A DNA stretch of 64,000 nucleotides. Source: Gallionellaceae bacterium (GTDB lineage Bacteria; Pseudomonadota; Gammaproteobacteria; Burkholderiales; Gallionellaceae). The notes beneath the pieces were generated by a model. That model ran no database searches. It saw only the letters and a list, made by a program, of their open reading frames with translations, and had not been told where the DNA came from. The stretch's first letter is position 1. Each line of letters opens with the position of its first letter. The translations under genes were made by a program, and so were the position numbers. The stretch is from positions 1 through 64,000 of the forward strand of contig JAUQWW010000049.1 of the NCBI GenBank assembly GCA_030834965.1, in the 5' to 3' direction. This document shows positions 48,904 through 63,428 of the stretch, piece by piece.

Positions 48904-49429
48904 AGAAGTGCTGCGCATGGGAGATGTGCGCCTGTTGCGCCGGGCGGACGAGGTGACTGCATTTGATACGCCGGATCTACACGCCTTGCTGACTGATATG
49001 TACAACACGATGCGCGCGCTGGAGGGGGCGGGACTGGCTGCGCCACAGATCGGCGTAAACCTGCGCGTGGTAATTTTTGGCGTGGATAGCAACCCGCGCT
49101 ATCCCGAGGCAGAAACGGTTCCGCACACGGTATTGATCAATCCCGTCATCACCCCTGCAGGTAATGACATGGAAGAAGGATGGGAAGGATGTCTGAGTGT
49201 GCCGGGAATGCGCGGGCTGGTGCCACGCTATGCAACCATCCGCTATCAGGGGCAAGACCAGTCTGGTGCGCCGATAGACCGTACTGTGCGTGGCTTCCAC
49301 GCCCGCGTGGTGCAGCACGAGTGCGACCATCTGGATGGAATTCTATATCCGATGCGCGTGAAAGATATGCGCTTCTTTGGGTTTCAAGATGTATTATTCC
49401 CTGATGGGCAATATCCTTTAAGTGAATGA
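48893..49429 (+). CDS. def: Peptide deformylase; 3' end probably supplied by the integrated element
   Basis: A 178-aa metallohydrolase with motif 1 GAGLAAPQI, motif 2 EGCLS and motif 3 QHECDH, binding Fe/Zn through Cys and two His. It removes the N-formyl group from new proteins. From codon 153 (about 49349) onward the DNA becomes A+T-rich (for example ATGTATTATTCC), and a second def 3' end lies at 63351-63428 (PMRIRDMRQFGYSDVLFP). Thus the original tail was displaced by integration and this one reads through into element DNA. The enzyme core is intact. Confidence 0.93.
49349..49357 (+). other. Candidate attL core (left junction of the element)
   Basis: CCGATGCGC in the def codons for YPMR matches exactly at 63351-63359; the flank TA[T/C]-CCGATGCGC makes 11 of 12 identical. 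Sequences upstream (def body) and downstream diverge. The core is short, so the boundary is approximate. Confidence 0.6.
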
Positions 49430-49505
49430 TGTATATCGAAAAATAGACGAATTGAAACCAGCCGAGACAGCATGAAACAGGGCTTGCAGTTTCTAGAAAA
49501 ATTGT

Positions 49506-49555
49506 GTAACGTTGTGGGTAATTCATGCTGTTACCCAATTTCTGATGTGGGTAAC
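49506..49555. promoter_or_regulatory. Candidate integrase arm-binding sites, left end
   Basis: GTAACGTTGTGGGTAA (49506-49521) is followed by the 8-bp inverted repeat GTTACCCA (49530-49537) / TGGGTAAC (49548-49555). A 14-of-16 match to the first word occurs at 63276-63291 near the right end. Repeated short words just before int are typical arm-type sites. Function is inferred. Confidence 0.5.
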
Positions 49556-49571
49556 GTTTTTGGAGCCCACT

Positions 49572-50852
49572 ATGTCGCTGAAAAAATCCGATATCGAAGC
49601 CGCAAAACCGCAGGACAAGCCCTATCGCTTGGCTGACCGCGATGGTCTCTATCTGGATGTCCGCGCCAAGTCGAAATCCTGGCGCTACCGCTACCGCTTT
49701 GCCGGCAAGGAAAATATATGCACCCTCGGGCGTTATCCCGAAATGGGGCGCGACGAAGCGCGCGAAGCGCTGATCGCAGTACGCAAACTGCTGGCGCAAG
49801 GCAAGGACCCGAGCAAGGAAAAAAAGCTGGAGCGTATTCGCGCTGGCCACCAGAACGCACAAACCTTTCGCGCCATCTTTGATGAATGGGTTGCCTCGCG
49901 CACTTGGGCCGAATCGACCAAGCGCAACCGTCTGGCGCAGATCGAATTCCATGTCCTGCCATACCTGGGGCCGCTGCCTGTGCGGGAAATCACTTCCATG
50001 CACGTCCTCGACGTATTGCGCCGGGCGGGAAAGCCTGCGCAAAGCACCAAGAAGGCGGGCAGGGGTGCACGGGTGCGCGATGTCGGCAGCCCGAACGTTG
50101 CCCGCCGGTTACGCCATTACATTGCCAGCGTCTTCAATGTAGCCATTGCCACTGGACGCGCCGACAACAATCCTGCAGGCTCGCTACGCGAAGTGCTCAC
50201 ACCGGCCGTCAAGGCTGCGCACAAAACCCCGTTGAAGCCCAAGCAGATCGGCGAATTCTTGCGCGCCCTCGACGGCTACCGTGGTGATCCCAAGACGGTA
50301 TTGGCATTCCGTCTGCTGTGGTGGTCTATGCTTCGGCCAGGGGAGGTGGTTGCGGCTCATTGGGATGAGTTCGATTTGGAGGCGGCGACATGGACTATCC
50401 CGCGCGCGCGGATGAAGCATAAGAACCCGCACCTCCCGCCGCACATCGTCCCCTTGCCGCACCAGGCAGTAGAAAAGCTTCAAGCGTGGAAAGACTTTAC
50501 AGGAGGCATCGGGCACCTGTTCCCGCACCGCGACAAGCCCGGAACTCCCATGATAGCCAGCACACTTGGCAAGGTGCATGCGCGCATGAAGGGCCTCGAT
50601 TTTGCATACTCGCCACACGCGACCCGCACCACCGCCTCGACACACTTGAACCAGTTGGGATACCGCTACGATGCCATCGAAAAGCAGCTCGATCACGAAG
50701 ACCGCGACGCGATCCGCCGCGCATACAACCGGGCCGACTATCTCGACGAGCGGCGCCAGATGATGCAGCAGTGGGCGGATATGTTGGATGAATGGAAGTC
50801 TGGCGGGAAGGTGATTCCCGTTGGCGTACGCAAGAGCAGCACGGCGACCTGA
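49572..50852 (+). CDS. int: Tyrosine recombinase/integrase, P4-like
   Basis: A 426-aa integrase. The N-terminal arm-binding region (LTKSDIEAAKP-like MSLKKSDIEAAKP, then YRYRFAGKENICTLGRYPEMG) is of the P4/DUF4102 type; the catalytic domain shows Arg in WWSMLRPGEV, HATR-type HxxR in SPHATRTTASTHLNQ, His in QLDHED and the Tyr in RRAYNRADYL. It directs site-specific insertion into def. ATG at 49572 follows GGAG; an extension to 49512 would overlap the arm sites. Confidence 0.93.
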   Translation: MSLKKSDIEAAKPQDKPYRLADRDGLYLDVRAKSKSWRYRYRFAGKENICTLGRYPEMGRDEAREALIAVRKLLAQGKDPSKEKKLERIRAGHQNAQTFRAIFDEWVASRTWAESTKRNRLAQIEFHVLPYLGPLPVREITSMHVLDVLRRAGKPAQSTKKAGRGARVRDVGSPNVARRLRHYIASVFNVAIATGRADNNPAGSLREVLTPAVKAAHKTPLKPKQIGEFLRALDGYRGDPKTVLAFRLLWWSMLRPGEVVAAHWDEFDLEAATWTIPRARMKHKNPHLPPHIVPLPHQAVEKLQAWKDFTGGIGHLFPHRDKPGTPMIASTLGKVHARMKGLDFAYSPHATRTTASTHLNQLGYRYDAIEKQLDHEDRDAIRRAYNRADYLDERRQMMQQWADMLDEWKSGGKVIPVGVRKSSTAT

Positions 50853-50942
50853 CCGTTTCAGGCAAAGCGGGGCGGCACGATGCGGACACACCGCGCCACC
50901 CCTACCACAATGTAGCACCCAACATCAAAGGAGACATACATC

Positions 50943-51713
50943 ATGGATAACGGCAATTTTACATTAACAAGCACCGAAGAAACGCGCGCCGGGGCGATGG
51001 CCTGCCTGGAAGCACTGCGGGCCATACAAAAAATTGCGGAAGATCCCAACCCCGATCGTTCGAAAGCAGGGTGGTGGCTCGAAAAAGATAACGCAGTAGC
51101 GGTCATGCTTCGTGCGGCGGGGAATCCGGGCGGTTTCATGGCGGGTTTTATTGCCACTCTTGCTGAGTATGTAAAGGACGATCTCTCTAGCGTCGGTTGC
51201 TATCCAGATGGTTGGGAAAAGCCGGAAGCCGCCATGACAGACGAGGAAAAGATAGCTTCGCGTGTCAGGCTTGATGAAGAGGTGGCGAGTACTGTTGAGA
51301 ATGGCTGCGTTACCGAAGAAGAAAAAGAGCAGTCATATCAAGAAGCCGCTGCGCAGGCCAGAAAATCAATTAGTGAGATGTTCAACAGCGCGAAAAACTT
51401 TGGGAGCGCATGCGCGAGGCATGTCACGAAAATAGCACCTATCCTGGTGGTGGACGCAGACGGCTATTCTTTCGGAGAAAAAACGGCGGAAAAAATCGGC
51501 CAATCGATCACTGCATTGGGCGAAATTATCAGGGGCGGCGAGATTGTGTTTTTCCCTGCAATCCACGAGCAGTGCCGCAACGAGATCGTGGCCAAAGCAT
51601 TCCAAGGGTGCCGGTACTATTTTACCGAGACTGAAATGGAAGCCAATATCCAGAGGTTCATGACCGAATCGCTTGCAGCCAAAAGCGATGCAGAGACAAC
51701 AGTTTCCGCTTGA
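50943..51713 (+). CDS. Unknown element protein, 256 aa
   Basis: ATG at 50943 follows AAAGGAGACATACATC, an excellent ribosome site. The protein opens MDNGNFTLTSTEETRAGAMA, is acidic in the middle (TDEEKIASRVRLDEEVAS) and has a predicted globular C-terminal half with IAPILVVDADGYSFGEKTAEK and GGEIVFFPAIHEQCRNEIVAKAF. No signal peptide or membrane segment. No known family is recognised. It lies right after int, a position where satellites often carry cargo, and is followed by twin hairpins. Confidence 0.8.
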   Translation: MDNGNFTLTSTEETRAGAMACLEALRAIQKIAEDPNPDRSKAGWWLEKDNAVAVMLRAAGNPGGFMAGFIATLAEYVKDDLSSVGCYPDGWEKPEAAMTDEEKIASRVRLDEEVASTVENGCVTEEEKEQSYQEAAAQARKSISEMFNSAKNFGSACARHVTKIAPILVVDADGYSFGEKTAEKIGQSITALGEIIRGGEIVFFPAIHEQCRNEIVAKAFQGCRYYFTETEMEANIQRFMTESLAAKSDAETTVSA

Positions 51714-51719
51714 GGCAAT

Positions 51720-51760
51720 GTCCGGCCAGACACCCTGGCCGGACCGCCGCGTTAGCGGCG
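51720..51760 (+). promoter_or_regulatory. Twin perfect hairpins between two unknown genes
   Basis: GTCCGGCCAG-ACACC-CTGGCCGGAC (51720-51744, 10-bp stem, 5-nt loop) is followed at once by CGCCGC-GTTA-GCGGCG (51745-51760, 6-bp stem, 4-nt loop). No U-run follows, so it is not a plain terminator. It could be an attenuator, an RNase or protein site, or a transcript-stability element separating the 50943 and 51805 genes. Confidence 0.72.
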
Positions 51761-51804
51761 CAAGCGCGAATATTTACTGGCATTACATCAACCAAGAGGC
51801 TGAC

Positions 51805-52599
51805 ATGGAGAATAGCAATTATCCAAGCTACATTACGAAGGATGTCATTGCTGCGCATGAAAGGGTTGTGCACGACTGGGGAGAGGAAGGCGACATCGTG
51901 GCGCGGCGACTGATCTTTCGCCCGTGCATGGAAAAGGTATATCGGGATGTCGGCAAGCTGCTTAATGGACTGCCAGAGGCGCCTGGCCCATCAGGAAGCG
52001 TGGGGACGCCATGGGATTGGTTTCTCGAAATTATGGTCACGGTGGAGGGCGAATACAATTGGATTTCCAAGACTATTAAGCCGGCGCGAAAGGAACTGAA
52101 ACAGCGCATGAAAAAAATCCATAGTTCAGGTGCACAGTTACTGACAGACTTGAAATGGGCGCTGGGTGGCAGTGATAGGTGGCTCAATCATTTGCAATAT
52201 AACCGCTCGCAATATCACGGATTGAGTCTCCCCGATGAGTTTGAGTTCGAAATGGTCGAAAAACTTGAAAAAATTATTGAGGCTGCCTCAACGTGGGATG
52301 GAAAATCGGCTTATGATGAATTCGCTGCGATTTGTGAGGGAGGGGTTTTTAAGAAGTCGTCACCCGAGATTCATTATGCGAAATCGGTGTACGGTCTTCT
52401 TCGCCATGCTTGCGAGCATGGCTCGTATGGATTTCCGGCAGTTGAGAAATTCCGCCTTCCATATCTGCTTTCCTACGATAACTATGCCCGCATTACTCGT
52501 GCCGCCCTCGATTTGCCTGACGATCTTGGGCCGTACAGGCGACCGTTTTCTGGTGAAGACTTGCGGTTGGCAAAGGCATTTTCCAAAACTACCCCGTAG
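51805..52599 (+). CDS. Unknown element protein, 264 aa
   Basis: ATG at 51805 follows AAGAGGC. The protein opens MENSNYPSYITKDVIAAHERVV and is Trp/Tyr-rich (GTPWDWFLEIMVTVEGEYNWI), with a helical C-terminal half (YAKSVYGLLRHACEHGSYGFPAVEKFRLPYLLSYDNYARITRAALDLPDDLG). No membrane segment, no known family. Its A+T content is higher than that of the packaging genes downstream. A longer frame from 51673 lacks a ribosome site. It may be cargo with the previous gene. Confidence 0.75.
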   Translation: MENSNYPSYITKDVIAAHERVVHDWGEEGDIVARRLIFRPCMEKVYRDVGKLLNGLPEAPGPSGSVGTPWDWFLEIMVTVEGEYNWISKTIKPARKELKQRMKKIHSSGAQLLTDLKWALGGSDRWLNHLQYNRSQYHGLSLPDEFEFEMVEKLEKIIEAASTWDGKSAYDEFAAICEGGVFKKSSPEIHYAKSVYGLLRHACEHGSYGFPAVEKFRLPYLLSYDNYARITRAALDLPDDLGPYRRPFSGEDLRLAKAFSKTTP

Positions 52600-52618
52600 T
52601 TTTTCGCTCACCGAATAA

Positions 52619-52644
52619 CTTAAAATCCTACGGATTATATTAAG
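52619..52644. promoter_or_regulatory. Palindromic A+T-rich site upstream of the AlpA-like gene
   Basis: CTTAAAATCC-TAC-GGATTATATTAAG is an imperfect dyad 52 bp upstream of the AlpA-like start, and includes a TATATT word. It is a candidate operator and promoter, perhaps bound by the HTH protein itself. Only the symmetry is seen. Confidence 0.4.
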
Positions 52645-52695
52645 CACATAGAAGCGGCATGATGCGCCTTGTATCACCAAGTACGAGGAGCAGCC

Positions 52696-52923
52696 ATGCA
52701 AACCAAACGCAACACAATCCCCGACGCATTGCGTCATTTCGATTCCCTTCCCGATAGCGCCTACGTGCGCAGCCGTGTTGTCCAGGGGCTGCTGTCATGC
52801 TCACGCGCGACAGTTCACCGTCGAGTCGCTGACGGAACGCTGCCAGCGCCTACCCACCCTTCACCGGGCATAGCGGCCTTCAAAGTCGGTGATCTGCGCC
52901 GCGCCCTTGCCGCGAGGGGCTAA
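52696..52923 (+). CDS. AlpA/excisionase-like small HTH protein
   Basis: A 75-aa protein with an AlpA-like winged HTH: AYVRSRVVQGLLSCSRATVHRRVADGTLPAPTHPSPGIAAFKVGDLRRALA. P4-type elements carry such a protein to control excision and int expression. ATG at 52696 follows ACGAGGAGCAGCC. It precedes the tiny basic genes and tape measure. Confidence 0.78.
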   Translation: MQTKRNTIPDALRHFDSLPDSAYVRSRVVQGLLSCSRATVHRRVADGTLPAPTHPSPGIAAFKVGDLRRALAARG

Positions 52924-52925
52924 TC

Positions 52926-53093
52926 ATGAACTACAGGGCCACCCCGCGAGGAATGAACGGAATGAGCGAAAACCTCAACAAAACTACCAGACCCGTTGCC
53001 CTGGAGGATGTCATCGCCAACGGCAATAGGGCGCAGCGCAGATTCGCCAAGAAGAAACTCGCAGCAATACCGCGCAGCAAATCCAAGAAATGA
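52926..53093 (+). CDS. Tiny basic protein, 55 aa
   Basis: ATG at 52926, two bases after the previous stop. Product MNYRATPRGMNGMSENLNK... with NRAQRRFAKKKLAA and a Lys/Arg-rich tail (SKSKK). The NRAQRR motif is common in small phage basic proteins. Its stop overlaps the next start (ATGA), showing coupling. Function unknown; nucleic-acid binding is plausible. Confidence 0.58.
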   Translation: MNYRATPRGMNGMSENLNKTTRPVALEDVIANGNRAQRRFAKKKLAAIPRSKSKK

Positions 53094-53245
53094 GCAGGGC
53101 CCGCACTGGAGCCTGGAAAGCGCGGGCGGAGCACAAACGCACAGGGCGTGGCTTCATGCAGATGCTCGCCAAAACCAATCAGCGTCGCACCGATAAAAAA
53201 TGCGCGATCAAGCGCGCAACGGTGGCAAAGATAAAGGGAAGCTAA
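53090..53245 (+). CDS. Tiny basic protein, 51 aa
   Basis: ATG at 53090 overlaps the stop of the 55-aa gene (ATGA), and its own TAA at 53243-53245 is one base before the tape-measure ATG. The product (MSRARTGAWKARAEHKRTGRG... RRTDKKCAIKRATVAKIKGS) is strongly basic. No family recognised. Tight coupling with both neighbours supports it. Confidence 0.55.
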   Translation: MSRARTGAWKARAEHKRTGRGFMQMLAKTNQRRTDKKCAIKRATVAKIKGS

Positions 53246-53246
53246 C

Positions 53247-55199
53247 ATGGCCAACAACGAAACAAAGGTTGTCGTCACCGCCAATACCGCACAAGCAGAA
53301 TCATCGATCAAGACGTTTGGCCAATCGCTGGATTTGACGACACGCAGCATGCTCAACCTAAGCGGAATGGCCGGTACGCTGGGCGGCGCACTGAGCATCA
53401 CAGCCTTTGCGGGATTCATCAAGAGCAGCATTGATGCTGCCGATCAACTCTCCAAGCTCGCGCAGAAGACCGGCACCACGGTGGAAGCGCTCGCCGGGCT
53501 GAAATTTGCCGCCGAACAAAACGATGTATCGCTGGAATCCACCGCGAACGCCGCCAAGAAGCTCGCCACCAACATCGCAGACAATCCGGAGCTGTTCAAA
53601 AAGTTCGGCATCACCGCCAAAGACACCACCGGAGCTTTGGTGCAGATGGCCGACATCTTCGCAGCCATGCCGGACGGCGTGGAGAAATCAGCTCTCGCAA
53701 CCAAGCTATTGGGGAAGGCGCTTGGGGATGAAATGATCCCGTTCCTGAACCAGGGCAGCGCCGAGCTGCAGAGGCTCATTGAAAAGGGGCAGGAGTACAA
53801 CCCGGTAACGGAAGAAAGCGCGAAGCAGGCCCAGGCGTTCAACGACCAGCTAAAGGAGTTGCAGTCCAGTTCAGCCACGCTGGGCGTGACGATTGCGGGC
53901 GAATTGCTGCCAAAGATGAACGAACTGCTCGCGCAGATGATCGAGGGCAAAAAGATATTCGGCGGATTCTGGAGCGCGATGATCGGAGCCGGTGCGATGG
54001 ACCCGGTAAAAACATGGGGGCAGCACGCAAAGGAATTGCGCGCAGAACTCGAAAAGCTCGAAGGCGACCGCGCGAAGAGGCTCGGCGCCGGGATGGGCAC
54101 GAACCTGATCGACACACAAATCGCCGCCGCCAGGCAGAAACTGGAATGGGCGAAATATAACCAGAATCAGGAAGCGCTTGCTGCACTTCCGCCCGGAGGT
54201 TACCGGGACGAGGCCGCTCGTTTGTTGGGAAATGCAAAAAACAAGAACGACGGGAAAGGGATATCCCTGTACGGCGCGCTGGGTGGAGACAGTAAAGACG
54301 ACAAGGTCTTAAAGGCGCCGAAAGATTTCAACCCGGACGCCGATTACCAGTTCGCTATCGATGAGGCGCGGCGCAAGAACAACAAAAAGGCGCAGGAAGA
54401 TTACCTGCGCGATATGGTCAAAGCGGAGGAAGACGCTAACCGCGAATTGCAGCGCAGCGCGCTGGAGGCGCAGGCGATCATCTTCGATGTCGATCCAATC
54501 GCGAAAGCGACTCACGAATGGGAGAAGCTCACTGCGCTGAAGGAGCGCGGCCTGCTCACGGATGAGCAGATCGGCAAGGCGTATGCCAAGACATTCGGCG
54601 AGAACATGGAACAGATGAGTCAGTACGGCAAGCGATTTGCAGAAAATATCCAGCGCAATCTGGGGGACGTTTTATACGATGGGCTTAACGGAAAATTCGA
54701 CAGCATAGGGGATTCGTTCAAGCAAATGCTTGAACGCATGGCGGCTGATGCGGCAGCGGCGCAACTGGCCAAGAAGTTGGTCGGAGATATGGCGACCACT
54801 GGCAATGCTGGAGGATGGGTTGGTGATTTAATGAGTATGTTCTCTGGCGGAAATCCGTTTAGCGGTGGAGGCGGATGGAGCGGCACAGGAACAGCAGCGT
54901 CGAACGGAACAGAAGCTGTTTTAGCCAGCCTTGGCCTGCCTGGGTATGGTGGAACTTTTGCAACCGGCATCGACTACGTTCCACGCGACATGCTGGCCTT
55001 CATTCATAAGGGCGAGCGCGTCGTGCCGGCGGCGCAGAATAACGGAAGCGCAGGCGGTATCGTCTATTCCCCAGTCAACAACATAAGCATTGATTCGCGC
55101 ACGGACCAGGCCGAGGTTCATCGGCTGGTATCGAATGCTATCCGGCAAGGAAATGCTGAGCTTGTTGACAAGCTGCAGCGCGCAGGGGCGCTGGCGTGA
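53247..55199 (+). CDS. Phage tail tape-measure protein
   Basis: A 650-aa protein with an N-terminal helical part (NTAQAESSIKTFGQSLDLTTRSM), a hydrophobic patch (LGGALSITAFAGFI), long Ala/Lys/Glu-rich helices and a C-terminal signature FATGIDYVPRDMLAFIHKGERVVPAAQN typical of lambda-gpH-like tape measures of siphophages. If functional, 650 residues would set a tail near 100 nm (0.15 nm per residue rule). It is far from other tail genes and upstream of replication genes, which is unusual. AAAGGGAAGC precedes the ATG. Confidence 0.86.
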   Translation: MANNETKVVVTANTAQAESSIKTFGQSLDLTTRSMLNLSGMAGTLGGALSITAFAGFIKSSIDAADQLSKLAQKTGTTVEALAGLKFAAEQNDVSLESTANAAKKLATNIADNPELFKKFGITAKDTTGALVQMADIFAAMPDGVEKSALATKLLGKALGDEMIPFLNQGSAELQRLIEKGQEYNPVTEESAKQAQAFNDQLKELQSSSATLGVTIAGELLPKMNELLAQMIEGKKIFGGFWSAMIGAGAMDPVKTWGQHAKELRAELEKLEGDRAKRLGAGMGTNLIDTQIAAARQKLEWAKYNQNQEALAALPPGGYRDEAARLLGNAKNKNDGKGISLYGALGGDSKDDKVLKAPKDFNPDADYQFAIDEARRKNNKKAQEDYLRDMVKAEEDANRELQRSALEAQAIIFDVDPIAKATHEWEKLTALKERGLLTDEQIGKAYAKTFGENMEQMSQYGKRFAENIQRNLGDVLYDGLNGKFDSIGDSFKQMLERMAADAAAAQLAKKLVGDMATTGNAGGWVGDLMSMFSGGNPFSGGGGWSGTGTAASNGTEAVLASLGLPGYGGTFATGIDYVPRDMLAFIHKGERVVPAAQNNGSAGGIVYSPVNNISIDSRTDQAEVHRLVSNAIRQGNAELVDKLQRAGALA

Positions 55200-55292
55200 T
55201 CCTCCATCCCGCATTGCAGGGAGCCACCAAGACTGGCGAATGTAAGCCACGTTCGGTCTGGTCGCCGATCTTACCGGTTCGTACTAGCAAGC

Positions 55293-55715
55293 ATGGCTAT
55301 TGACCAATTACTCTCACGGTTGGATGGTGTTAAACGCACCGGTAAAGACCGTTGGATGGCACGCTGCCCAGCGCATGAGGATAAGCGCGCATCGCTGGCG
55401 ATAACTGAGCTTGGTGATGGACGGGTGCTCTGTCATTGCTTCGCGCTCTGCGATGTTCAATCCGTTCTATCGGCTGTTGGCCTTGAGTTTGACGCGCTGT
55501 TTCCTGAGCGTGCCGTTGATACGCATTGCAAGGTTGAGCGCAGGCCATTCCCCGCATCTGACGTGCTGCGTGCAATCGCTTTTGAGGCGCGCATCGTGAG
55601 CTTGGCAGCACTCGACATGGCGCATGGCAGAACGCTATCAGAAGAGGCGCGCACGCGTTTGCTGTTGGCTAACCAGCGCATTGCTGGCGGACTTTCAGCG
55701 GGTGGGCTGTCATGA
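55293..55715 (+). CDS. CHC2-type zinc-finger protein (primase N-domain-like)
   Basis: A 140-aa protein with primase-like zinc ligands: CPAH (Cys25, His28) and CHCFALC (about Cys47-Cys52), in the context KDRWMARCPAHEDKRASLAI...GRVLCHC. This is the zinc domain of P4/DnaG-type primases encoded apart from the helicase. Its stop overlaps the next start by 4 bp, so it probably works with the downstream primase/helicase in origin-specific priming. Confidence 0.83.
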   Translation: MAIDQLLSRLDGVKRTGKDRWMARCPAHEDKRASLAITELGDGRVLCHCFALCDVQSVLSAVGLEFDALFPERAVDTHCKVERRPFPASDVLRAIAFEARIVSLAALDMAHGRTLSEEARTRLLLANQRIAGGLSAGGLS

Positions 55716-57106
55716 AAGAAGTTGGCGACTCGATAGGCAAACTCGATGCGCTCCTGGAGCGCGAAACTAAAGTAGCAGAGAAAAAACGTAACGCAATCGC
55801 AGCGACACCATCCGGCGCGCTGGCGTTATCCGAGGATTCGCTTGCGTCCGCGTACGAAGAAAAATATGCAGGCCGCCTTCTCTATGCGCACAAATTAGGG
55901 CGATGGTATATCTACGATCCAAAAACAGGGGCGTGGCGTGTTGATACGATGGAGCGAGTCCAGCACTGGGTAAGGGAATTCGTTCGTAGCCTCAACTCCG
56001 AACAGAGGGAAAAATGGGCCAAGGCTTCTATCGTGTCTGCGGTGGATCAATACTGTCGCCGCGCCCCTGCGATGGCGCGCTCAGGCGATGAATTTGACGC
56101 TGATACTTGGCTGCTCGGGACACCATCCGGCGTGCTGGATTTGCGCACTTCAACGATGCTACAAAAATCACCGGAACATTATGTCAGTAAACGTACCTCT
56201 GTTTCGCCGTGCGCAAGCGAGCCAACGCTCTGGCTGACATTTCTTAAGCAGGCAACCGGCGGAGACAAGGATCTGATTGATTATCTCCAGCGTCTTGCTG
56301 GGTACTGTTTGACAGGCGAAACAAGGGAAGAGGTGCTGGTATTTATGCACGGCCCCGGCGGCAACGGCAAGGGCGTGTTTATGAATGTGCTGCGAGACAT
56401 TTTGGGAGAGTATGCGCGCCAGGCACCGATGCAGATTTTCCTCGCCAACAACGGCGACCGCCACCCGACAGAGCTTGCCGCCCTATTTGGCGCGCGCCTG
56501 GTGCTGGCAAGCGAAAGCCCCGAGGGGCGGCGCTGGGATGAAGAGCGTATCAAATCTTTGACCGGGCGCGATGCCATCTCTGCGCGATTTATGAATCGTG
56601 ACTTTTTCGAGTTCATCCCTCGCTTCAAATTGCTGGTTGCATCCAACCACAAACCCAGGATTAAAACTGTTGACGATGCTTGGCGCAGGCGGCTTCACCT
56701 CGTCCCCTTCACCCGCAAACCCGAACAACCAGACCCGGGGCTTAAGGACAAGCTGCGTGGGGAGTATCCGTCAATCTTGCAATGGATGATCGACGGCGCC
56801 GAGTGGTGGTCAAGGGAGGGTCTGGTGCCACCAGCAACGATTACTGAAGCGACAGCCGAGTATTTCAGGGAAGAGGATGTTATCGGCCTATGGTTTGCCG
56901 AGCGCTGCGACAAGTGCGACAGCGTCACTTACACCGAACGCAGCCAGCTTTACCATTCTTATGAGGCATGGTGCCGTGGTATGGGGCACGCAGCCGCAAC
57001 CATGCACTCAATGACGCGATGGTTAACTCAGAATGGTTTTGAGCAGCACAGCACTAATAAGACCCGCCCCATCAAAGGGGTGGTGTTGAAACCGCTGGAT
57101 AGCTGA
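55712..57106 (+). CDS. P4-type primase/superfamily 3 helicase
   Basis: A 464-aa protein with a D5-N/P4 alpha-like domain (about 20-190) and an SF3 helicase: Walker A HGPGGNGKGVF (about 212), LASESPEGRRWDEERIKSLTGRD (Walker B/B' region) and sensor KLLVASNHKPRI with arginine-rich AWRRRLHLVPF. It replicates the excised element from its own origin. The iteron cluster at 57116-57297 just downstream is the likely binding site. It overlaps the CHC2 gene. Confidence 0.92.
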   Translation: MKEVGDSIGKLDALLERETKVAEKKRNAIAATPSGALALSEDSLASAYEEKYAGRLLYAHKLGRWYIYDPKTGAWRVDTMERVQHWVREFVRSLNSEQREKWAKASIVSAVDQYCRRAPAMARSGDEFDADTWLLGTPSGVLDLRTSTMLQKSPEHYVSKRTSVSPCASEPTLWLTFLKQATGGDKDLIDYLQRLAGYCLTGETREEVLVFMHGPGGNGKGVFMNVLRDILGEYARQAPMQIFLANNGDRHPTELAALFGARLVLASESPEGRRWDEERIKSLTGRDAISARFMNRDFFEFIPRFKLLVASNHKPRIKTVDDAWRRRLHLVPFTRKPEQPDPGLKDKLRGEYPSILQWMIDGAEWWSREGLVPPATITEATAEYFREEDVIGLWFAERCDKCDSVTYTERSQLYHSYEAWCRGMGHAAATMHSMTRWLTQNGFEQHSTNKTRPIKGVVLKPLDS

Positions 57107-57115
57107 AATGGTTAT

Positions 57116-57297
57116 TTGCGCACTTGCGCACTTTGCGCAGCGTTTTCCCGTTAATCGGCTATAGGGCATTTTTTGCAATAAGTCTCAAAACAAGTGCGCA
57201 AAGTGCGCAAGTGGCGCATTTCTTTATACGCGGGCGCGCACCCCCGCGCATTAGGGAAACATCCCGAAAATGCTGCGCAAAGTGCGCAAGTGCGCAA
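57116..57297. other. Iteron cluster, candidate replication origin
   Basis: A 25-bp unit starting CTGCGCAAAGTGCGCAAG occurs at 57273-57297 and as a perfect reverse complement at 57116-57140; its 19-bp core TGCGCAAAGTGCGCAAGTG repeats at 57195-57213. Between them lies an A+T-rich stretch (57142-57192). This is just downstream of the primase/helicase gene and has no credible coding frame. The pattern matches iteron-type origins such as P4 ori/crr, but binding is inferred. Confidence 0.78.
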
Positions 57298-57335
57298 AGG
57301 CATCACCTGCATCACACCACTCGAAAGGAAGCAAG

Positions 57336-57605
57336 ATGAGTCACGCTATTGATAGATCATCTGTCGAACTCTCCGCATATCTGCTGGAGCGGCGCAGTTT
57401 ATTTTCTCGGCTTTCCGGCATCGAAACACTTTCCAATAAGTTCCGCGAAGCATGCCGCGATGTCATATCAGCCATGGATCAGTATCAGTCTCGCGATGAA
57501 GGTGAGGCGATGCATGAATTAGAGGCGGCCCTGCATCAATGGGTTCGTGTCGGCAATAACGAGTGGCTGCTGCACGACGATAGCTTGGAGGTGGGGTCAT
57601 GCTGA
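57336..57605 (+). CDS. Unknown element protein, 89 aa
   Basis: ATG at 57336 follows CGAAAGGAAGCAAG. A helical, acidic protein (MSHAIDRSSVELSAYLLERRSLF... ACRDVISAMDQYQSRDEGEAMHELEAALHQW). No family recognised. It overlaps the gpZ-like start by 7 bp, so it is co-translated with the structural genes. Confidence 0.68.
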   Translation: MSHAIDRSSVELSAYLLERRSLFSRLSGIETLSNKFREACRDVISAMDQYQSRDEGEAMHELEAALHQWVRVGNNEWLLHDDSLEVGSC

Positions 57606-58294
57606 ACTTGCGCGTAACGATAACCGGCCTTGATGCCGTCAAGAAGACCATCGCCGACCTAGAAAAACAGACGCGCTACGCCACAGCCGTGGCGCTGACC
57701 CGCACGGCCAAGGCCGTCAAGGATGGGATGCCAGCGGTAATGGAGCGCGAACTCGACAGGCCTACCCCGTTCTCCAAGCGAGGCTTGTTCGTGCAGCCTG
57801 CGCGCCCCATCGACTTGAAGGCGGTAGTTGGGTTTATGGATCGCCAGGCATCCTATCTGAAATACCAGATCGCTGGCGGCGCACGCATGCCAACAGCACG
57901 CGGCATCAAGCTGCCTGGCAATGTCGAGCTTAATTCATTTGGCAACATCCCCAAGGGGTTGATCGACAAGCTCAAGCAGGCGGCGCAGTCTGGCCTGCTG
58001 TCAAAGGCTATCGGCAAGAAGTTGGGCGTTGGCGATCGGCGCAAGGGTGCTGCACCTATCCAGCTCTTTCTCGGCAAGCCCATCGGGCGCGGATGGGAGA
58101 AGGCGCCAATGGGTATATGGCGGCGCGTGCCTGGCAGCCCAGGCAAGTTGATCCCCGTGATCCTCTTCGAAGATACGCCAGCCAAGTACAAGCCGCGCTT
58201 CAAGTTCCACGAAGCGGCAGCATCCATTGTGCGACGCGAATGGGATCGGCAGTTCGCCAACGCCTTTGCCGAAGCCATGAGGACGGCCAAATGA
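57599..58294 (+). CDS. gpZ-like minor tail protein
   Basis: A 231-aa protein with the pattern of phage tail-completion/minor tail protein Z families: ITGLDAVKKTIADLEKQTRYATAVALTRTAKAVKDGMPAVMERELDRPTPF and a basic middle, ending HEAAASIVRREWDRQFANAFAEAM. gpZ-like proteins terminate or cap the tail at the head end. Assignment is moderate; HK97-gp10-like is an alternative. A 20-codon frame overlaps its stop (58291) and is not called. Confidence 0.66.
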   Translation: MLNLRVTITGLDAVKKTIADLEKQTRYATAVALTRTAKAVKDGMPAVMERELDRPTPFSKRGLFVQPARPIDLKAVVGFMDRQASYLKYQIAGGARMPTARGIKLPGNVELNSFGNIPKGLIDKLKQAAQSGLLSKAIGKKLGVGDRRKGAAPIQLFLGKPIGRGWEKAPMGIWRRVPGSPGKLIPVILFEDTPAKYKPRFKFHEAAASIVRREWDRQFANAFAEAMRTAK

Positions 58295-58415
58295 TCAAGG
58301 TACTCCGCCAGCTTTTCCAAGTACGGGTTATTCGCACCGCGTTTTTTGTTTAGTTTTATCAATGCACTAGGTTTCATTAAGCAGTACTTATCCACCACTA
58401 CAGAAAGGAAATATC

Positions 58416-59531
58416 ATGCAACAGAGCCCCGTAATATCTACCCACCATCGCCAGCGGCGCGTCCCGGCTGCCATCGCCCATGCCGCGCTTGCCCACGAAG
58501 AAGCAAGCAAGGTTAATCCGACAGAGGGCTTTCGCAGCTTTGGTGAATTCGTCTATCAAGTAAAGCAGGCATGCACCGGCCCCGCTGCCGACCCACGTCT
58601 GGTACGCGCAGCAACCACCTTCGGAAGCGAGGGCGTTGGCCCATCGGGCGACTATGCGGTTCCTTCGGCGTTCGCACAAGAAATTGCCAGCCTCGCTTAC
58701 AGCGAAGGGTCGCTGCTGCCGCTGTGCAGCGAGTTGCCGATCAGCAGCAGCACCGTCGATATTCCGCGCGACGAAACCACGCCCTGGGGGTCAACCGGCA
58801 TCGTCGCCGCATGGGAAGGCGAAGGCGGGCAATCCGCACAGAGTAAGCCTGACCTTGATTCAACCTCATGCCGCCTGCGGAAACTGAAGACACTTGTGCC
58901 GATTACCGACGAACTGTTGGAAGACTCGCCGGCAATGGAAGGCTATCTCAAGCGCGTGATGAGTGCCGCCATATGCTGGAAGATAAACGACGCGATCATC
59001 AACGGCACCGGCGCAGGGGTTCCGCTTGGCATCCTCAAGGCACCTTCCTTGATAGTGCAAGCCAAGGAAGGTGCGCAGACCGCAGACACCATCAACGCTG
59101 CGAACGTGACGAACATGCTATCCCGCGCGATTCTGACCGGAGGCGGCAATATCGTCTGGCTCATCAATCCTGATGCCTATGGGCAGGTGATGAGCCTCGT
59201 CTTGAATGAGTCGCCAATCTGGACACCCGGCACCAGCGTCGATGCACCCAACGGCCTGCTGCTTGGCCGCCCCATTGTGCTGACGGATGCCTGCCAGACC
59301 TTGGGCGATCAAGGGGACATCATCCTGGCAAATATGAGCGGATATCAGGCTGTCACCCGTGCAGGCGGTGCCGTGCTCGCGAGCAGCATGCATCTGTGGT
59401 TTGACCAGGACATTACCGCTTTTCGCCTGACGTTCCGTATGGATGGCCAGCCGCTGTTGTCGGCAGCAGTCACCCCGCCCCATAGCACGGTAACGCGCAG
59501 CCATTTTGTCACCCTGGCCGTACGTGCCTAA
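58416..59531 (+). CDS. Phage major capsid protein, HK97 fold
   Basis: A 371-aa protein with the HK97-type pattern: GPSGDYAVPSAFAQEIASLAYSEGSLLPLCSELP, a core EDSPAMEGYLKRVMSAAICWKINDAIINGTGAGVPLGIL, and a C-terminal P-domain strand MHLWFDQDITAFRLTFRMDGQPL. The N-terminal region before GDYAVP is about 75 residues, shorter than the 103-residue HK97 delta domain. No head protease is seen, so maturation may not need cleavage or uses a helper's. AGAAAGGA precedes the ATG at 58416. Confidence 0.9.
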   Translation: MQQSPVISTHHRQRRVPAAIAHAALAHEEASKVNPTEGFRSFGEFVYQVKQACTGPAADPRLVRAATTFGSEGVGPSGDYAVPSAFAQEIASLAYSEGSLLPLCSELPISSSTVDIPRDETTPWGSTGIVAAWEGEGGQSAQSKPDLDSTSCRLRKLKTLVPITDELLEDSPAMEGYLKRVMSAAICWKINDAIINGTGAGVPLGILKAPSLIVQAKEGAQTADTINAANVTNMLSRAILTGGGNIVWLINPDAYGQVMSLVLNESPIWTPGTSVDAPNGLLLGRPIVLTDACQTLGDQGDIILANMSGYQAVTRAGGAVLASSMHLWFDQDITAFRLTFRMDGQPLLSAAVTPPHSTVTRSHFVTLAVRA

Positions 59532-59578
59532 AACACGGGCCGGAATAACACCGGCCCATTGATGAAAGGAAACACATC

Positions 59579-60226
59579 ATGCAAAACAACATACCAAACG
59601 AAATTCTTGAGTACGTCAACAAGAAAGGCATCCTTGAGCGCATTGCGGAAACGCAACAGGCGGAGCGCGAAGAAGAACGCGTCCGCCTGGCAGAAGAAAT
59701 TATTGCCCTCAAGAAACACGAAGCCGAAATACTGCCGCCCCTACTGGAGCGCCAGCGTAACGCCAGAGCAGCTCTGGAGGCCGCAGAAGTCGCGCTGCAG
59801 CAAGCCCGCGTGGAACTTGCCGAAGCCAATTCACAGGTTATTGCCGCTGACACAAGTTTCCGTATAGAGCGGCGCCACAACCTGCTTGCCGGGCTGGCCG
59901 ATCCGCGTATCCATGGCGCCATCACTCAGCTGCTCAACTTCGATGAAAAGGCCCGCCAGGGTGGGTTTAGCGCTTGGACACAGACCGAGAAAAAATGGGA
60001 CGGTGATAAGACAAAGATTGAGTGCAACAACTCCGATGTGCTGGAAGCGGTTCGCGCTCAAATCCGCAAGGCCGTCACCGATCTGGAAGCGCTGTTATAC
60101 GCGCCCCGCCCGGCCAACCTGTCCGAAATCCTGGAAGCGGCGCTATCTGCAGGCGAGGCCGCCTGCCATCGCATCGGCGTCACCGTGCACCGCGCCGACC
60201 ACCTGGCAAGCATTACGAAACACTGA
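59579..60226 (+). CDS. Coiled-coil protein, possible scaffold
   Basis: A 215-aa protein with a long coiled-coil (about residues 15-90: RIAETQQAEREEERVRLAEEIIALKKHEAEILP... ARAALEAAEVALQQARVELAEANSQ) and a globular tail with two Cys (IECNNSDVLEAV, EAACHRIGV). It lies between the capsid and small terminase genes. Position and coiled-coil suggest a scaffold or head-assembly role; no family is recognised. Confidence 0.72.
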   Translation: MQNNIPNEILEYVNKKGILERIAETQQAEREEERVRLAEEIIALKKHEAEILPPLLERQRNARAALEAAEVALQQARVELAEANSQVIAADTSFRIERRHNLLAGLADPRIHGAITQLLNFDEKARQGGFSAWTQTEKKWDGDKTKIECNNSDVLEAVRAQIRKAVTDLEALLYAPRPANLSEILEAALSAGEAACHRIGVTVHRADHLASITKH

Positions 60227-60230
60227 CGCC

Positions 60231-60722
60231 ATGCGCATCATCGGCCAGACCGAAATCGCCGCCATCTTTGGCGTCACGCCACGCACCATCAACGAATGGC
60301 AGGATGCCGGCATGCCCGTTGCCGTACAGGGCGGTCCCGGCGTGCCTGGCGAATACGACAGCGAGGCATGCATCCGCTGGCGGGTTGAGCGTGAAGTCGC
60401 CAAGGTGCAGGGGCCGGAAACGCCAAAGGACCGGCTCGCGCGCCTGCAGGGCGACGATCTGGAAATGAAGCTGGCACGCGAACGCGGCAAGCTGATCGAG
60501 AAAGCAGCCGTCGAACCGGCCATGCGTGCCGCCATCGTCTCGGCACGCGAGCGCGTGCGCAACGAGCCGGCGCGCATCGCCGCACAAATGGAGAGCCTTG
60601 ATCGCGCCGGGCGGGAAGCCCTGCTGCGCGATCTCTTGGATGAAGTGCTGACCAAGCTTTCCCGCTGGCAGCAGGTCGGCACATACGATGGCGAACAACA
60701 AGCCGATGAATGCGCCGCTTGA
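60231..60722 (+). CDS. Terminase small subunit, gpNu1-like
   Basis: A 163-aa protein with a winged HTH (IIGQTEIAAIFGVTPRTINEWQDAGMPVAVQGG) and a helical part (LARLQGDDLEMKLARERGKLIEKAAVEPAMRAAIVSARERVRNEPARIAAQM), as in lambda gpNu1, which recognises cos for packaging. Its 3' end overlaps the TerL start by 35 bp, a common Nu1-A coupling. Confidence 0.88.
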   Translation: MRIIGQTEIAAIFGVTPRTINEWQDAGMPVAVQGGPGVPGEYDSEACIRWRVEREVAKVQGPETPKDRLARLQGDDLEMKLARERGKLIEKAAVEPAMRAAIVSARERVRNEPARIAAQMESLDRAGREALLRDLLDEVLTKLSRWQQVGTYDGEQQADECAA

Positions 60723-62793
60723 CCTGACGGGTACGCTCGCTACCGGCTGGGCCGATGCCACGCTGGACGCCCTGATAGCTTCTGTCTGGAGTGAGTTTGC
60801 GCCGCCGCCGCGCCTGAGCATCGATGAGTGGGCCGAGCGTTATCGCGAGCTGTCGCCCGAAGAATCGCCGATCCCTGGCCCCTATTCGCTCGAATATACG
60901 CCCGTGCTGCGCGAAATCCTGCGCGCCTGTTCAGATCCCAAGGTGCGCAAAGTAGTGGTGCAGAAATCGGCGCAGCTTGGCTATACCGTCGGTGTTGTCT
61001 GCAACGTCATGGGCTATCACGCGCACCAGCGCCCGAGCGTGCAGATTGCCGTATTCCCGCGCGAGAAAAGCGCCAAGGATTTCGCTGCGGAGAAGTTCGA
61101 CCCCATGGTGCGCGCCACCAAACCACTGGCCGAGCGCATCAGCCTGAAAAGCCGCGCGGCCGGCAACAGCCAGACCCGCAAGCATTATCCTGGCGGCCTG
61201 ATCAAACTTGTCGGCAGCAACTCGCCCAGCGACGTGAAATCGACCAGCGCCCGCGTGGTGATCGTCGAAGAGCCAGATGATGCCAGTAACAACGTGCGAG
61301 GCCAGGGCGACGCCATCAAACTGGCGGAAGAGCGCGCGAAAGCCTACCCCGACCACCTGATCCTGATAGGCGGCACCCCGACCGCGAAGGGCGCGAGCAG
61401 CATCGAACAAGAGATACTTGCCAGCGATCAGCGCAAGTTCCATGTGCCATGCCCGCACTGCGGCGACGAACATATCCTCGCATGGGACCACATCATCATC
61501 CCCGAGGATGACGAGCAGCCCCGCGAAATCTACGGCCGCTCCCGCTGGGAAGATGCCTTCTACACCTGCCCGGCCTGCGGCACAGCGTGGACTGAAGAAG
61601 AACGGCACGACGCCATCCGGCGCGGACATTTTGAGGCGACGGCGCCCGCCACCGCCGCCGTCGGCTTCCTGGTTAACGAGCTGCTGTCCACCTTCGACGG
61701 CTCGCGCGTCCCTGTGCTGGCCCGTAAATACCTGGAGGCGAAACACAAACAGGACGAGGGTGATCACAGCGAGATGGTCGCCTTCTGGAATTCCACGCTT
61801 GGGCTGCCGTGGGAGTATCGCGGCGAGCTGCCCGAGGAAGACGAACTGCGCGCCCGCGCAGAAGCCTACGCCGAATGGACAGCGCCAGATGGCGGCCTGA
61901 TCCCCGTGCTCACTGTCGACGTGCAGCATGATCGCCTGGCCGTCACCTGCTGGGTGATCGGTCGCCGCGAGGAAATGTGGCTGGCCTTCTGGGGCGAGCT
62001 GCACGGCCAGACTATCGTCCCATTTGCCGGTGCATGGCAGGAACTCGACAACCTTCTGGAAAACACCGTGCGGCACGCCAGCGGTTCCGCTCTGCCAATT
62101 GCCGCCGTTGCGCTCGATTCATCGGACGGCCAGACCAGCGGTGCGGTGTATGACTACGTGCGCAAGCGCAACCGCCCGGGCCGCCCCGTGTATGCGATCA
62201 AGGGCGCAAGCGATAGCGAGGGAAAAATCGAAATATGGCGCCAGCCGCAGGCGCAATCGATCGAGCCGCACTGGAATGGGCGCAAGTCCGCGAAGTATGG
62301 CGTGCATGTGCACATTGTCGGCACGGCCAAGGCGAAAGACAGCATTCTTGGCTGGGCGCAGGAAGGCGGGCGCGTGCGGCTGACCGGCGGCGGCCCGCAC
62401 CGCATGCACTGGTATGAAAACGTCCGTCCCGACTTTTATGAGCAACTGCTGTCTGAAATCAAAATTCCGATGCGCCAGAACCCAAAGCGGCGCCAATGGA
62501 AGAAGCGCACAGACCGGCGCAATGAAGCACTGGATTGCACCGTGTACGCACTCTGGCTGGTGCATGCCCTGCGGCTGCACATACAGAAGCCCGCCTGGTG
62601 GGATCACACCGAAGAAAAAATAAGGCAGCGCGGACTGTTCGAGGCGGAAGCTGCTGCGGCAATCCCCCCAATCGAGCCTGCAACAATAAGCGCTGGAGAG
62701 ACTGACCCGCAAGCGCCAGCGGAGACGGAAGGCGAATACAAACAGCCGGCGCGGCGCAACCGCCCGCGCCAGGGATTCGCTACGCGATGGTGA
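60688..62793 (+). CDS. Terminase large subunit, lambda gpA-like
   Basis: A 701-aa packaging ATPase/nuclease. Walker-A-like KSAQLGYTVGV (about residue 93; the last Lys of lambda's KSARVGYSK is Val here), Walker B VVIVEEPDDAS, a zinc-like CPHC/CPAC pair (about 256 and 297), and nuclease Asp in LTVDVQHD, ALDSSDG and EALDCTVYALWL. It packages DNA into proheads from cos sites. It is intact, which suggests the element packages its own genome. Confidence 0.92.
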   Translation: MANNKPMNAPLDLTGTLATGWADATLDALIASVWSEFAPPPRLSIDEWAERYRELSPEESPIPGPYSLEYTPVLREILRACSDPKVRKVVVQKSAQLGYTVGVVCNVMGYHAHQRPSVQIAVFPREKSAKDFAAEKFDPMVRATKPLAERISLKSRAAGNSQTRKHYPGGLIKLVGSNSPSDVKSTSARVVIVEEPDDASNNVRGQGDAIKLAEERAKAYPDHLILIGGTPTAKGASSIEQEILASDQRKFHVPCPHCGDEHILAWDHIIIPEDDEQPREIYGRSRWEDAFYTCPACGTAWTEEERHDAIRRGHFEATAPATAAVGFLVNELLSTFDGSRVPVLARKYLEAKHKQDEGDHSEMVAFWNSTLGLPWEYRGELPEEDELRARAEAYAEWTAPDGGLIPVLTVDVQHDRLAVTCWVIGRREEMWLAFWGELHGQTIVPFAGAWQELDNLLENTVRHASGSALPIAAVALDSSDGQTSGAVYDYVRKRNRPGRPVYAIKGASDSEGKIEIWRQPQAQSIEPHWNGRKSAKYGVHVHIVGTAKAKDSILGWAQEGGRVRLTGGGPHRMHWYENVRPDFYEQLLSEIKIPMRQNPKRRQWKKRTDRRNEALDCTVYALWLVHALRLHIQKPAWWDHTEEKIRQRGLFEAEAAAAIPPIEPATISAGETDPQAPAETEGEYKQPARRNRPRQGFATRW

Positions 62794-63071
62794 GCGATTG
62801 CATTATCGATTTCATCATGGGTCTCGTGGAAGAAGAAGCACGCAAGGCCGGGATCCACTTCCCGGTCGAAATGCGGAAAGCGATCGACCGTCGCACCCGC
62901 AACACATGGGGCGGCAGCGAGCCATATATCGCCCATGGAAGGGAGGCGCGCATCATCGAGCGCAACGAAAAGATCGTCGCGCTGTGGGATGCCGGCAACC
63001 ATGACGTGCGCATGCTGGCGACCCGCTTCGGGCTTTCGACCAAGCAGGTGCGGCGGATTGTCAGAAAATGA
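62787..63071 (+). CDS. Mor-like transcription activator
   Basis: A 94-aa protein with NTWGGSEPYIAHGREARIIERNEKIVALWDAGNHDVRMLATRFGLSTKQVRRIVRK: the strand plus HTH pattern of the Mor/C activator family of Mu-like phages. ATG at 62787 overlaps the TerL stop. Such proteins switch on late genes, so it may drive the element's own or a helper phage's late genes. The family call is by pattern, not search. Confidence 0.66.
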   Translation: MVSDCIIDFIMGLVEEEARKAGIHFPVEMRKAIDRRTRNTWGGSEPYIAHGREARIIERNEKIVALWDAGNHDVRMLATRFGLSTKQVRRIVRK

Positions 63072-63126
63072 GCAGGCGCCGCTCTTTAATGGAGTTTATA
63101 CCGCCACTCGAGTAGAGGACTTCGGC

Positions 63127-63165
63127 CCCATCACCGCGAGAGAGCAGACCCATGGCGGTGATGGG
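63127..63165. promoter_or_regulatory. Perfect 11-bp inverted repeat after the last element gene
   Basis: CCCATCACCGC (63127-63137) and GCGGTGATGGG (63155-63165) are perfectly complementary with a 17-nt loop. No U-run follows. It may end the late transcript, or be a recombination or cos-associated site. Confidence 0.55.
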
Positions 63166-63275
63166 TGGCGTACCTTCCGGTGCTGACCTCCTGGCAGTGA
63201 CACGGTGCACCCTTACCCGCGAATACGATCATCAAGTGCGGATGGCGTCGCAAAAATCAGCGAAAGTGATAGCGG

Positions 63276-63291
63276 GTAAAGTTGTGTGTAA
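63276..63291. promoter_or_regulatory. Candidate integrase arm-binding site, right end
   Basis: GTAAAGTTGTGTGTAA differs from the left-end word GTAACGTTGTGGGTAA (49506-49521) at two of sixteen positions and lies 60 bp before the right junction. It is a likely arm-type site for integrase or excisionase. Confidence 0.45.
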
Positions 63292-63350
63292 ACCAATTTT
63301 ATCCACCTCGAAAACAAGCAACAACAATGGTCTTGGAAGCTATCCAATAC

Positions 63351-63428
63351 CCGATGCGCATACGTGACATGAGGCAGTTTGGTTACTCTGACGTGCTGTT
63401 CCCCAACGGCGGCGTGATGGAAGAATAA
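63351..63428 (+). pseudogene. def: Displaced native 3' end of def (attR)
   Basis: Beginning at the shared core CCGATGCGC, the plus strand reads PMRIRDMRQFGYSDVLFPNGGVMEE and a TAA at 63426-63428, which matches the end of a peptide deformylase (compare [21 protein letters not shown] at the intact gene). It has no start and is G+C-rich like the def body, unlike the current def tail. This is the original chromosome tail cut off by integration. Confidence 0.85.

Follow-up and report, generated by a model that had tools for sequence, protein, structure and literature searches.

A candidate phage satellite in the def gene of a Gallionellaceae bacterium, with its own terminase, tape measure gene and a lone capsid gene

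P4-like satellites carry a P4-family primase/helicase and an integrase together with the Sid, Psu and Delta genes. Capsid-forming phage-inducible chromosomal islands (cf-PICIs) are listed as encoding a major capsid protein (MCP), portal, head maturation protease, head-tail connectors, small and large terminase subunits (TerS and TerL) and an HNH endonuclease (PMC10690885). In Vibrio cholerae, the tape measure protein (TMP) of PLE11, one of the phage-inducible chromosomal island-like elements (PLEs), sits in the virions, and the chimeric tails are about 10 nm shorter (Mathur et al. 2026, Nature, PMC12987554). According to that 2026 paper, every satellite that has been well characterized relies on hijacked phage tails, and no other satellite has been reported with a tape measure; in the legend of its Extended Data Fig. 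10, putative tmp genes are given for PLE-like elements and for some cf-PICIs, and satellite TMPs have, on this account, been known since 2026 from Vibrio PLEs and, putatively, from some cf-PICIs. Satellite-borne inhibition of tail assembly, not TMP genes, is the subject of PMC11364771. Here we describe a 14.0-kb element at positions 49349-63359 of a 64,000-nucleotide stretch (the window) from a Gallionellaceae bacterium (assembly GCA_030834965.1, contig JAUQWW010000049.1, positions 1 to 64,000). The element is inserted in def and supplies a new def C-terminus. Judged from its genes, we give a probability of about one half to its being a phage satellite that uses a terminase of its own to package its cos DNA and forms hybrid particles on a helper portal and tail, using its own TMP and gpZ-like protein and perhaps its own MCP.

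The element resembles P4-like satellites in having a P4-type integrase and primase/helicase, but its proteins show no sid-, psu- or delta-like family match and it has a terminase, a TMP and an MCP of its own. With cf-PICIs it shares an MCP, TerS and TerL; portal, head protease and HNH endonuclease are without a family match, and the MCP is also missing from a sister element in def (contig L133, below). By the gene list of PMC10690885, the element fails the cf-PICI definition, and the initial annotation, which called it akin to such islands but different in gene set, holds up. The Vibrio PLE11 is similar in encoding a TMP with a small adjoining gene (a tail assembly chaperone in the PLE, the candidates s5 and s6 here) and in needing a helper for the remaining tail parts; the likeness is drawn from the published description, by which PLE virions have modified capsids and ICP1 tail parts, whereas our element encodes its own MCP, TerS, TerL and a cos-like site (PMC12987554). 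Among the element proteins, Pfam and PHROG searches found no HNH family and none of the portal, protease, tail tube, baseplate and lysis families that the initial annotation had listed as missing, and the lack of portal, tail tube, baseplate and lysis matches sets the element apart from a complete prophage. The remaining assignments of that annotation (P4-type integrase, primase/helicase, capsid, Nu1/TerL, tape measure and gpZ-like protein) were recovered as family matches in Pfam, NCBIfam and PHROG (Table 1). In the literature searched (mostly outside subscription journals) we found no description of a satellite that lacks a portal yet has MCP and terminase, nor of a satellite in def.

A close phage counterpart is the contig G451 (loci L135 and L136, 29.7 kb), which carries on one contig relatives of the MCP (60% identity), Mor (63%), TMP (54%, N-terminal), gpZ (30%) and TerL (29%), but differs in having a portal (PF05136 9e-94, 499 aa), an MCP fused to an S78 protease, and further genes between MCP and TMP. 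The donor or the helper may resemble this phage.

From the sequence, the insertion in def is site-specific. The longest exact repeat, CCGATGCGC, is shared by the left def 3′ end (49349) and the displaced def tail on the right (63351), and the interrupted gene is a peptide deformylase (Pep_deformylase 3.1e-49); repeat, deformylase match and displaced tail together confirm the 14.0-kb insertion proposed earlier. Twenty def loci were compared on the + strand only and scored regardless of insertions in their own def; 12 gave no readable tail, and of the 8 readable ones 5 favour the displaced right-hand tail, 1 is a tie and 2 (the window itself and genome G002) favour the element-borne tail. G002 has a def with an element-like C-terminus (L191 near 6548) and a stray def-tail match on another contig (L190:4927-4995), an arrangement that is possibly the scar of a lost element. 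Its displaced-def-tail match was rejected as a sign of the element, both loci being without any element gene. All element genes run rightward, and none of the 15 reading frames checked contains an internal stop (nu1 was placed separately, by the ATG at 60231), so the earlier statement that the genes look intact stands for these 15.

Table 1. Features of the element and its boundaries in the window
Feature	Position	Strand	Evidence or remark
attL core CCGATGCGC	49349..49357	+	in def 3′ end; repeat with 63351; Pep_deformylase; relatives' def tails
Element-borne replacement def C-terminus	bases after attL core to 49429	+	
P4-type tyrosine integrase	49572..50852	+	Phage_integrase 7.6e-16, Arm-DNA-bind_3 8e-22; ATG start, TTG at 49512 also open
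o2, 256 aa	50943..51713	+	no Pfam/PHROG/NCBIfam/PADLOC match; 66% in G471
o3, 264 aa, variable slot	51805..52599	+	no Pfam/PHROG/NCBIfam/PADLOC match
AlpA-like HTH (TTG start)	52669..52923	+	HTH_17 E 0.045, under Pfam cutoff
s5, 55 aa, GNRAQRR motif	52926..53093	+	same slot in L133, L134, G471; no family match (Pfam, PHROG)
s6, 51 aa	53090..53245	+	29-aa match at 62% in G471; no family match
Tape measure protein (TMP), 650 aa	53247..55199	+	PHROG tape-measure family, best 2e-25
Primase zinc-ribbon piece	55293..55715	+	phrog_6088 1.5e-13
P4-type primase/helicase C-terminal part	55712..57106	+	D5_N/DUF5906; TIGR01613 P4 primase C-terminus 2.9e-82
TTGCGCA-type inverted repeats, candidate origin	57115..57298	.	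33-nt arms 97% complementary, 19-nt arms 100%
o9	57270..57605	+	39.6% over 48 aa to L067 ORF before gpZ; no family match above cutoff
gpZ-like tail/neck completion protein	57599..58294	+	phrog_1924 1.2e-41
cos-like conserved noncoding site (putative function)	58297..58381	+	after gpZ; alignment of 22 loci
HK97-type MCP, without protease part	58416..59531	+	Phage_capsid 1e-47; TIGR01554 4.7e-51
o13, long-helix protein (215 aa among unknowns)	59579..60226	+	helix 18-88 in model, pLDDT 75.5
Nu1-type small terminase (TerS)	60231..60722	+	Phage_Nu1 1.8e-12
GpA-type large terminase (TerL)	60688..62793	+	GpA ATPase 1.2e-75, nuclease 1e-79
Mor-family late activator	62787..63071	+	Pfam Mor 1.9e-8; phrog_532 4.6e-11
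Conserved noncoding right end, likely integrase arm region	63207..63293	.	78% to L133, 73% to G471
attR core	63351..63359	+	then displaced native def tail to 63429

Judging by shared genes, the element belongs to a lineage. Scans of viral contigs yielded 45 MCP loci, 23 TerL loci and 4 gpZ loci. The TerLs of 4 of the 23 (L066, L067, L068 and L084) are 77-84% identical to that of the window, and the other 19 are at most 64% identical. Among 158 genomes of the host family 9 match TerL, namely the window's own, G471 (79%), G524 (44%) and six at 29-34%; 45 of 399 genomes of the order match, none above 47% apart from the window's own. The search for the same gene set elsewhere that the initial annotation suggested thus found relatives, two of them in def (L133 and G471). 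L133 (13,293 bases), the full record behind L066, begins inside the integrase and ends in a def-like 3′ end; its left junction lies off the contig, and we place it in def because its integrase is 85% identical over the 117 aa present and its def-like end has the same core context. A tree was built from 31 TerL sequences, without the duplicates (L066, L084) and without fragments of 380 residues or less. In it the TerLs of the window, L133, L134, L067, L068 and G471, the six close ones, form one clade with support 1.0, which mainly shows that no portal-bearing phage of the set falls among the six. A match to the L136 portal lies beyond TerL in 21 of the 22 other loci with at least 3 kb there (L083 is the exception) and in none of the 5 relatives searched, of which L068 and G471 alone extend far enough past TerL (3.3 and 11.4 kb, respectively); the window element ends 566 bases after TerL. 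Besides TerL, present in all six, the parts held in common are the integrase (window, L133, G471), the alpA-slot helix-turn-helix (HTH) gene and the NRAQRR protein (window, L133, L134, G471) and the TMP (window, L133, L134).

The gene order of L133 is integrase, RelE-like gene, unknowns, small HTH gene, alpA-like gene, s5, TMP (705 aa, with a tape-measure family match over most of its length), helical open reading frame (ORF), unknowns, primase/VapE helicase, Nu1 (77% identity) and TerL (84%), with no match to the window MCP or gpZ; 'helical', for proteins of the relatives other than o13, was read from the sequence by eye. L134 (11.3 kb, cut), whose alpA slot is occupied by an HTH_17 protein, has s5, helical ORF, TMP, primase/helicase, Nu1 and TerL but no MCP, and L067 (5.6 kb, cut) has an o9-like ORF, gpZ (Minor_tail_Z 2.1e-6), helical ORF, RadC, Nu1, TerL and Mor (2.1e-8), also without MCP. 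In L068 (10.2 kb) there are RadC, a piece of primase (53%), a VapE helicase, Nu1 and TerL, together with a weak match to Mor; genes for tRNA-Glu and tRNA-Ala stand at its end. The copy in G471, from another genus of the family, also sits in def with a def tail at its right end; upstream lie nucleotidyl-transferase and phosphoribosyl-transferase genes, the rest as in the window (translations read beside the window's Pfam matches). It has the integrase (86% over 425 aa), o2 (66%), alpA-like gene (38%), s5 (49%) and a helical protein of its own, and is without the TMP, Nu1, the larger part of the primase and the beginning of TerL, a primase-start-like stub running into TerL. As its sequence reads, G471 is a deletion derivative, which counts for site and lineage and against universal intactness; decay of the set in relatives, which the initial annotation had named as a finding that would refute its reading, is seen in G471 and not in L133. 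Since the MCP is missing from the TMP-bearing def sister L133, and from the covered regions of L134 and L067, the capsid is not a trait that defines the lineage, and the earlier label of capsid-encoding satellite therefore fits the window, which does carry an MCP, as a description of one variant.

The conserved noncoding site behind gpZ is a putative cos. In the alignment of 22 loci, which leaves out L079 (too near the contig end) and L146-L148 (Nu1 only 33-41% identical), it lies after gpZ in the window and L067 and before Nu1 in L133, L134, L068, L053 and 16 other TerL loci. It reads GGT(A/C)CT(C/T)C in 21 of 22, L134 having GGTTCTTC, followed after a gap by (A/G)CGG (21 of 22, not L068) and then a (C/T)AGTT-like end. 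When the window was left out, a profile of the remaining 21 loci found the site at E 1.8e-9 (next best 4.2), while a regular expression made with the window included gave 1 match in the window and matched 7 of 200 simulated windows. The idea that the window had lost cos, raised by the missing exact match to GGGTCCTTCC, was dropped when the alignment revealed the variant GGTACTCC, common to other loci. MCP and o13 sit between this site and Nu1 in the window, the site adjoins Nu1 in L133, and in L067 a helical ORF and RadC come between the two. The cos-like site and the Mor gene are additions to the initial annotation.

The MCP frame is 371 aa long, at most 386 to the preceding stop, and is without the N-terminal part of its phage relatives. 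In a comparison of 53 loci, 12 of the 13 homologs that are at least 47.8% identical and have uncut frames occupy the C-terminal end of a stop-to-stop frame of 622-780 aa (5 further loci at this identity run off their contigs; L023, L025 and L026, which have like scores, are possibly the same phage); more distant relatives mostly have frames of 450-540 aa. The one fusion tested (L136:2337-4484) joins an S78 protease to the capsid domain directly after a lambda-type portal. The exception among the 13, L035 (428 aa), was rejected as a satellite capsid, a separate frame lying upstream. We also note L053:2940-5503, where Nu1, a bare 316-aa MCP (47.7%) and an adjoining o13-like protein (30%) stand behind a DUF3987 primase with the cos-like motif present and no TerL match; this is a candidate for a second, different capsid-bearing satellite.

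By its position and modelled shape, o13 is a candidate scaffold or capsid-remodelling factor. Its model has no fold match at E ≤0.001 in BFVD or PDB, no viral contig matched it as a query, and as a marker it occurs in 2 of the 399 genomes of the order, the window's own and G336 (in two places). A common homology of the relatives' helical proteins was considered and rejected, the only pairs that hold being o13 with the protein beside the L053 MCP (30%, 8e-12), o13 with a mini-island in G336 (L149; 25%, 5e-5) and G471 with L134 (6e-29). The two small islands of G336 (L149:6425-13572 and L150:7285-15011) each have an o13-like protein and no recognised capsid or terminase gene; the first combines an integrase (36% against that of the window) with an AAA_25 helicase-like gene and Phage_AlpA (6.6e-18), and the second has, besides its integrase, a DUF3987 primase-like gene and a gene of ATPase-Toprim defence type (PADLOC 3.2e-43).

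The TMP also matches a PHROG of unknown function at 1.8e-38, and its 54% identity to the L136 TMP covers the N-terminal 228 aa. Beside it we note that the window TMP and that of L133 (L133:3272-5389) have the N-terminal part in common (39% over 225 aa) and further on match different PHROG families, as if the bodies of the two def-site TMPs had been replaced to suit different helpers; near the TMP 3′ end, 75 bases also match between the two. As a possible head-tail connector, gpZ also matches phrog_27 ('tail completion or Neck1') at 1e-3. Its predicted model is poor (pLDDT 61).

Other MCP relatives, L012-L017 (same family and order) and L019 and L020 (genome contigs), are 40-45% identical, and the only other element genes matched there are the helicase (L013, L014; 44-46%), the TMP (L012, L017; 29-32%) and a weak Nu1 (L020). 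TMP and integrase queries found 2 and 3 viral loci, respectively (the latter at 34-41%), none with another element gene. For TerL, dN/dS is 0.10/1.38 against L133 and 0.14/1.53 against L067; for Nu1, 0.14/0.96 against L133; for gpZ, 0.24/1.10 against L089; for MCP and TMP, 0.35/1.42 and 0.56/1.69 against L136; and for o2, 0.20/0.48 against G471. The values are well below 1 for TerL, Nu1, gpZ and MCP, and the series shows functional histories, not necessarily function after capture.

Among the remaining genes, the AlpA-like call of the initial annotation is one of the weaker ones, drawn from its position, same-slot relatives at 38-39% identity and the HTH_17 match (1.9e-8) of the L134 protein in that slot, the window's own protein staying below the Pfam cutoff. 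Of the proposed primase/helicase with iterons, the helicase and the inverted repeats are real (8 of the 14 TTGCGCA-type occurrences in 49301-63400 fall at 57116-57291), and a role as origin is a candidate reading. Directly before the TMP, s5 is by position a candidate tail-assembly chaperone; the one slippery-type heptamer between 52901 and 53260, AAAAAAT at 53195, falls within s6. An alignment of s5 had one match in 369 genomes of the class, the window's own. The slot between integrase and alpA holds o3 in the window, without a counterpart in L133, L134 or G471; L133 has a RelE-like toxin there (L133:1010-1348), and G471 (L167 and L168) antitoxin-like HTH genes, read by eye.

In the life cycle that we propose, a helper phage would trigger excision and replication of the element, Mor would switch on the late genes and the terminase would cut at the cos-like site. 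A helper portal would then serve for pumping the 14.0-kb DNA into a head built in whole or in part from satellite MCP, o13 being a possible scaffold or size factor and a helper protease maturing the head, and satellite TMP and gpZ would enter a tail otherwise made by the helper. A hijacker of packaging and tails may have come to bring shell subunits as well once MCP and o13 had inserted between cos and TerS. More tentatively than the satellite reading itself, we suggest that the fixed kit of the lineage is its own packaging motor and, in members complete enough, its own tail ruler, the MCP being an optional plug-in between cos and TerS; the bare MCP would have to nucleate on a helper portal, and heads and tails of the virion would both be of mixed origin.

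Several points weigh against a working satellite of this kind. Excision, replication and particles are proposed from the gene content, and a lone MCP, lacking portal and protease, would be found in a remnant as well; the candidate roles of s5 as chaperone and o13 as scaffold draw on position and shape, and fold searches with o13 found no match. A resident helper was not identified, because the host genome (104 contigs) has no PF04860 or PF05136 portal (the only portal families searched genome-wide), no second TMP and no second MCP. The dN/dS values are no proof of selection inside a satellite, since MCP and gpZ may have diverged from the phages before capture. G471 is a deletion derivative that has lost its TMP, and the Mor gene read by eye after its TerL was rejected, Pfam giving only a sub-cutoff HTH there. 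The TerL clade is partly expected, the six having been picked by TerL identity (at least 77%), and L133, L134, L067 and L068 are environmental viral contigs, some of them cut; among the relatives, only L068 and G471 reach far enough beyond TerL for a portal to show.

The same satellite might use its MCP, with o13, not as a shell but to poison or redirect helper capsid assembly, by sizing or interference, and travel in heads of helper MCP. The MCP-less relatives have the same terminase and cos-like site, and the lineage is presumably packageable without an MCP of its own; the MCP also stands alone, without portal or protease, and o13 has relatives in small islands where no MCP was recognised. 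Still, the full Phage_capsid match and the low dN/dS of the MCP count against it and nothing points to interference, and we hold this variant to be unlikely, if worth keeping in mind. Less probable again is a decayed or recombinant small prophage that lost its portal, protease and tail genes: the absence of portal and protease, the plain deletion in G471 and the lack of a portal of the two families in the host genome would suit it, but the 15 checked frames are open, att repeats and cos-like site are present, and a similar reduced set and order recurs in separate contigs whose TerLs are close and on which no portal was found. A true cf-PICI would account for the AlpA-like gene, P4-type integrase, MCP and terminase if its portal and connectors had diverged beyond sight; the unknowns (256, 264, 215, 111, 55 and 51 aa) are short beside the 499-aa L136 portal and no portal or protease matched, which makes this very improbable. 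We give just as little credence to a domesticated gene-transfer or tailocin-like element, which a TMP and MCP in a chromosome without a portal of the two families might suggest, but which sits badly with an integrase, att repeats and own replication genes and with finding no tail tube or lysis gene.

The lineage suggests that the habit of bringing one's own TMP is wider than Vibrio, and here the TMP is coupled with an own terminase. With one element that carries an MCP and another that lacks it at a single chromosomal gene, the two can be compared to test what benefit a satellite draws from a lone capsid gene and if such an MCP can assemble on a foreign portal.

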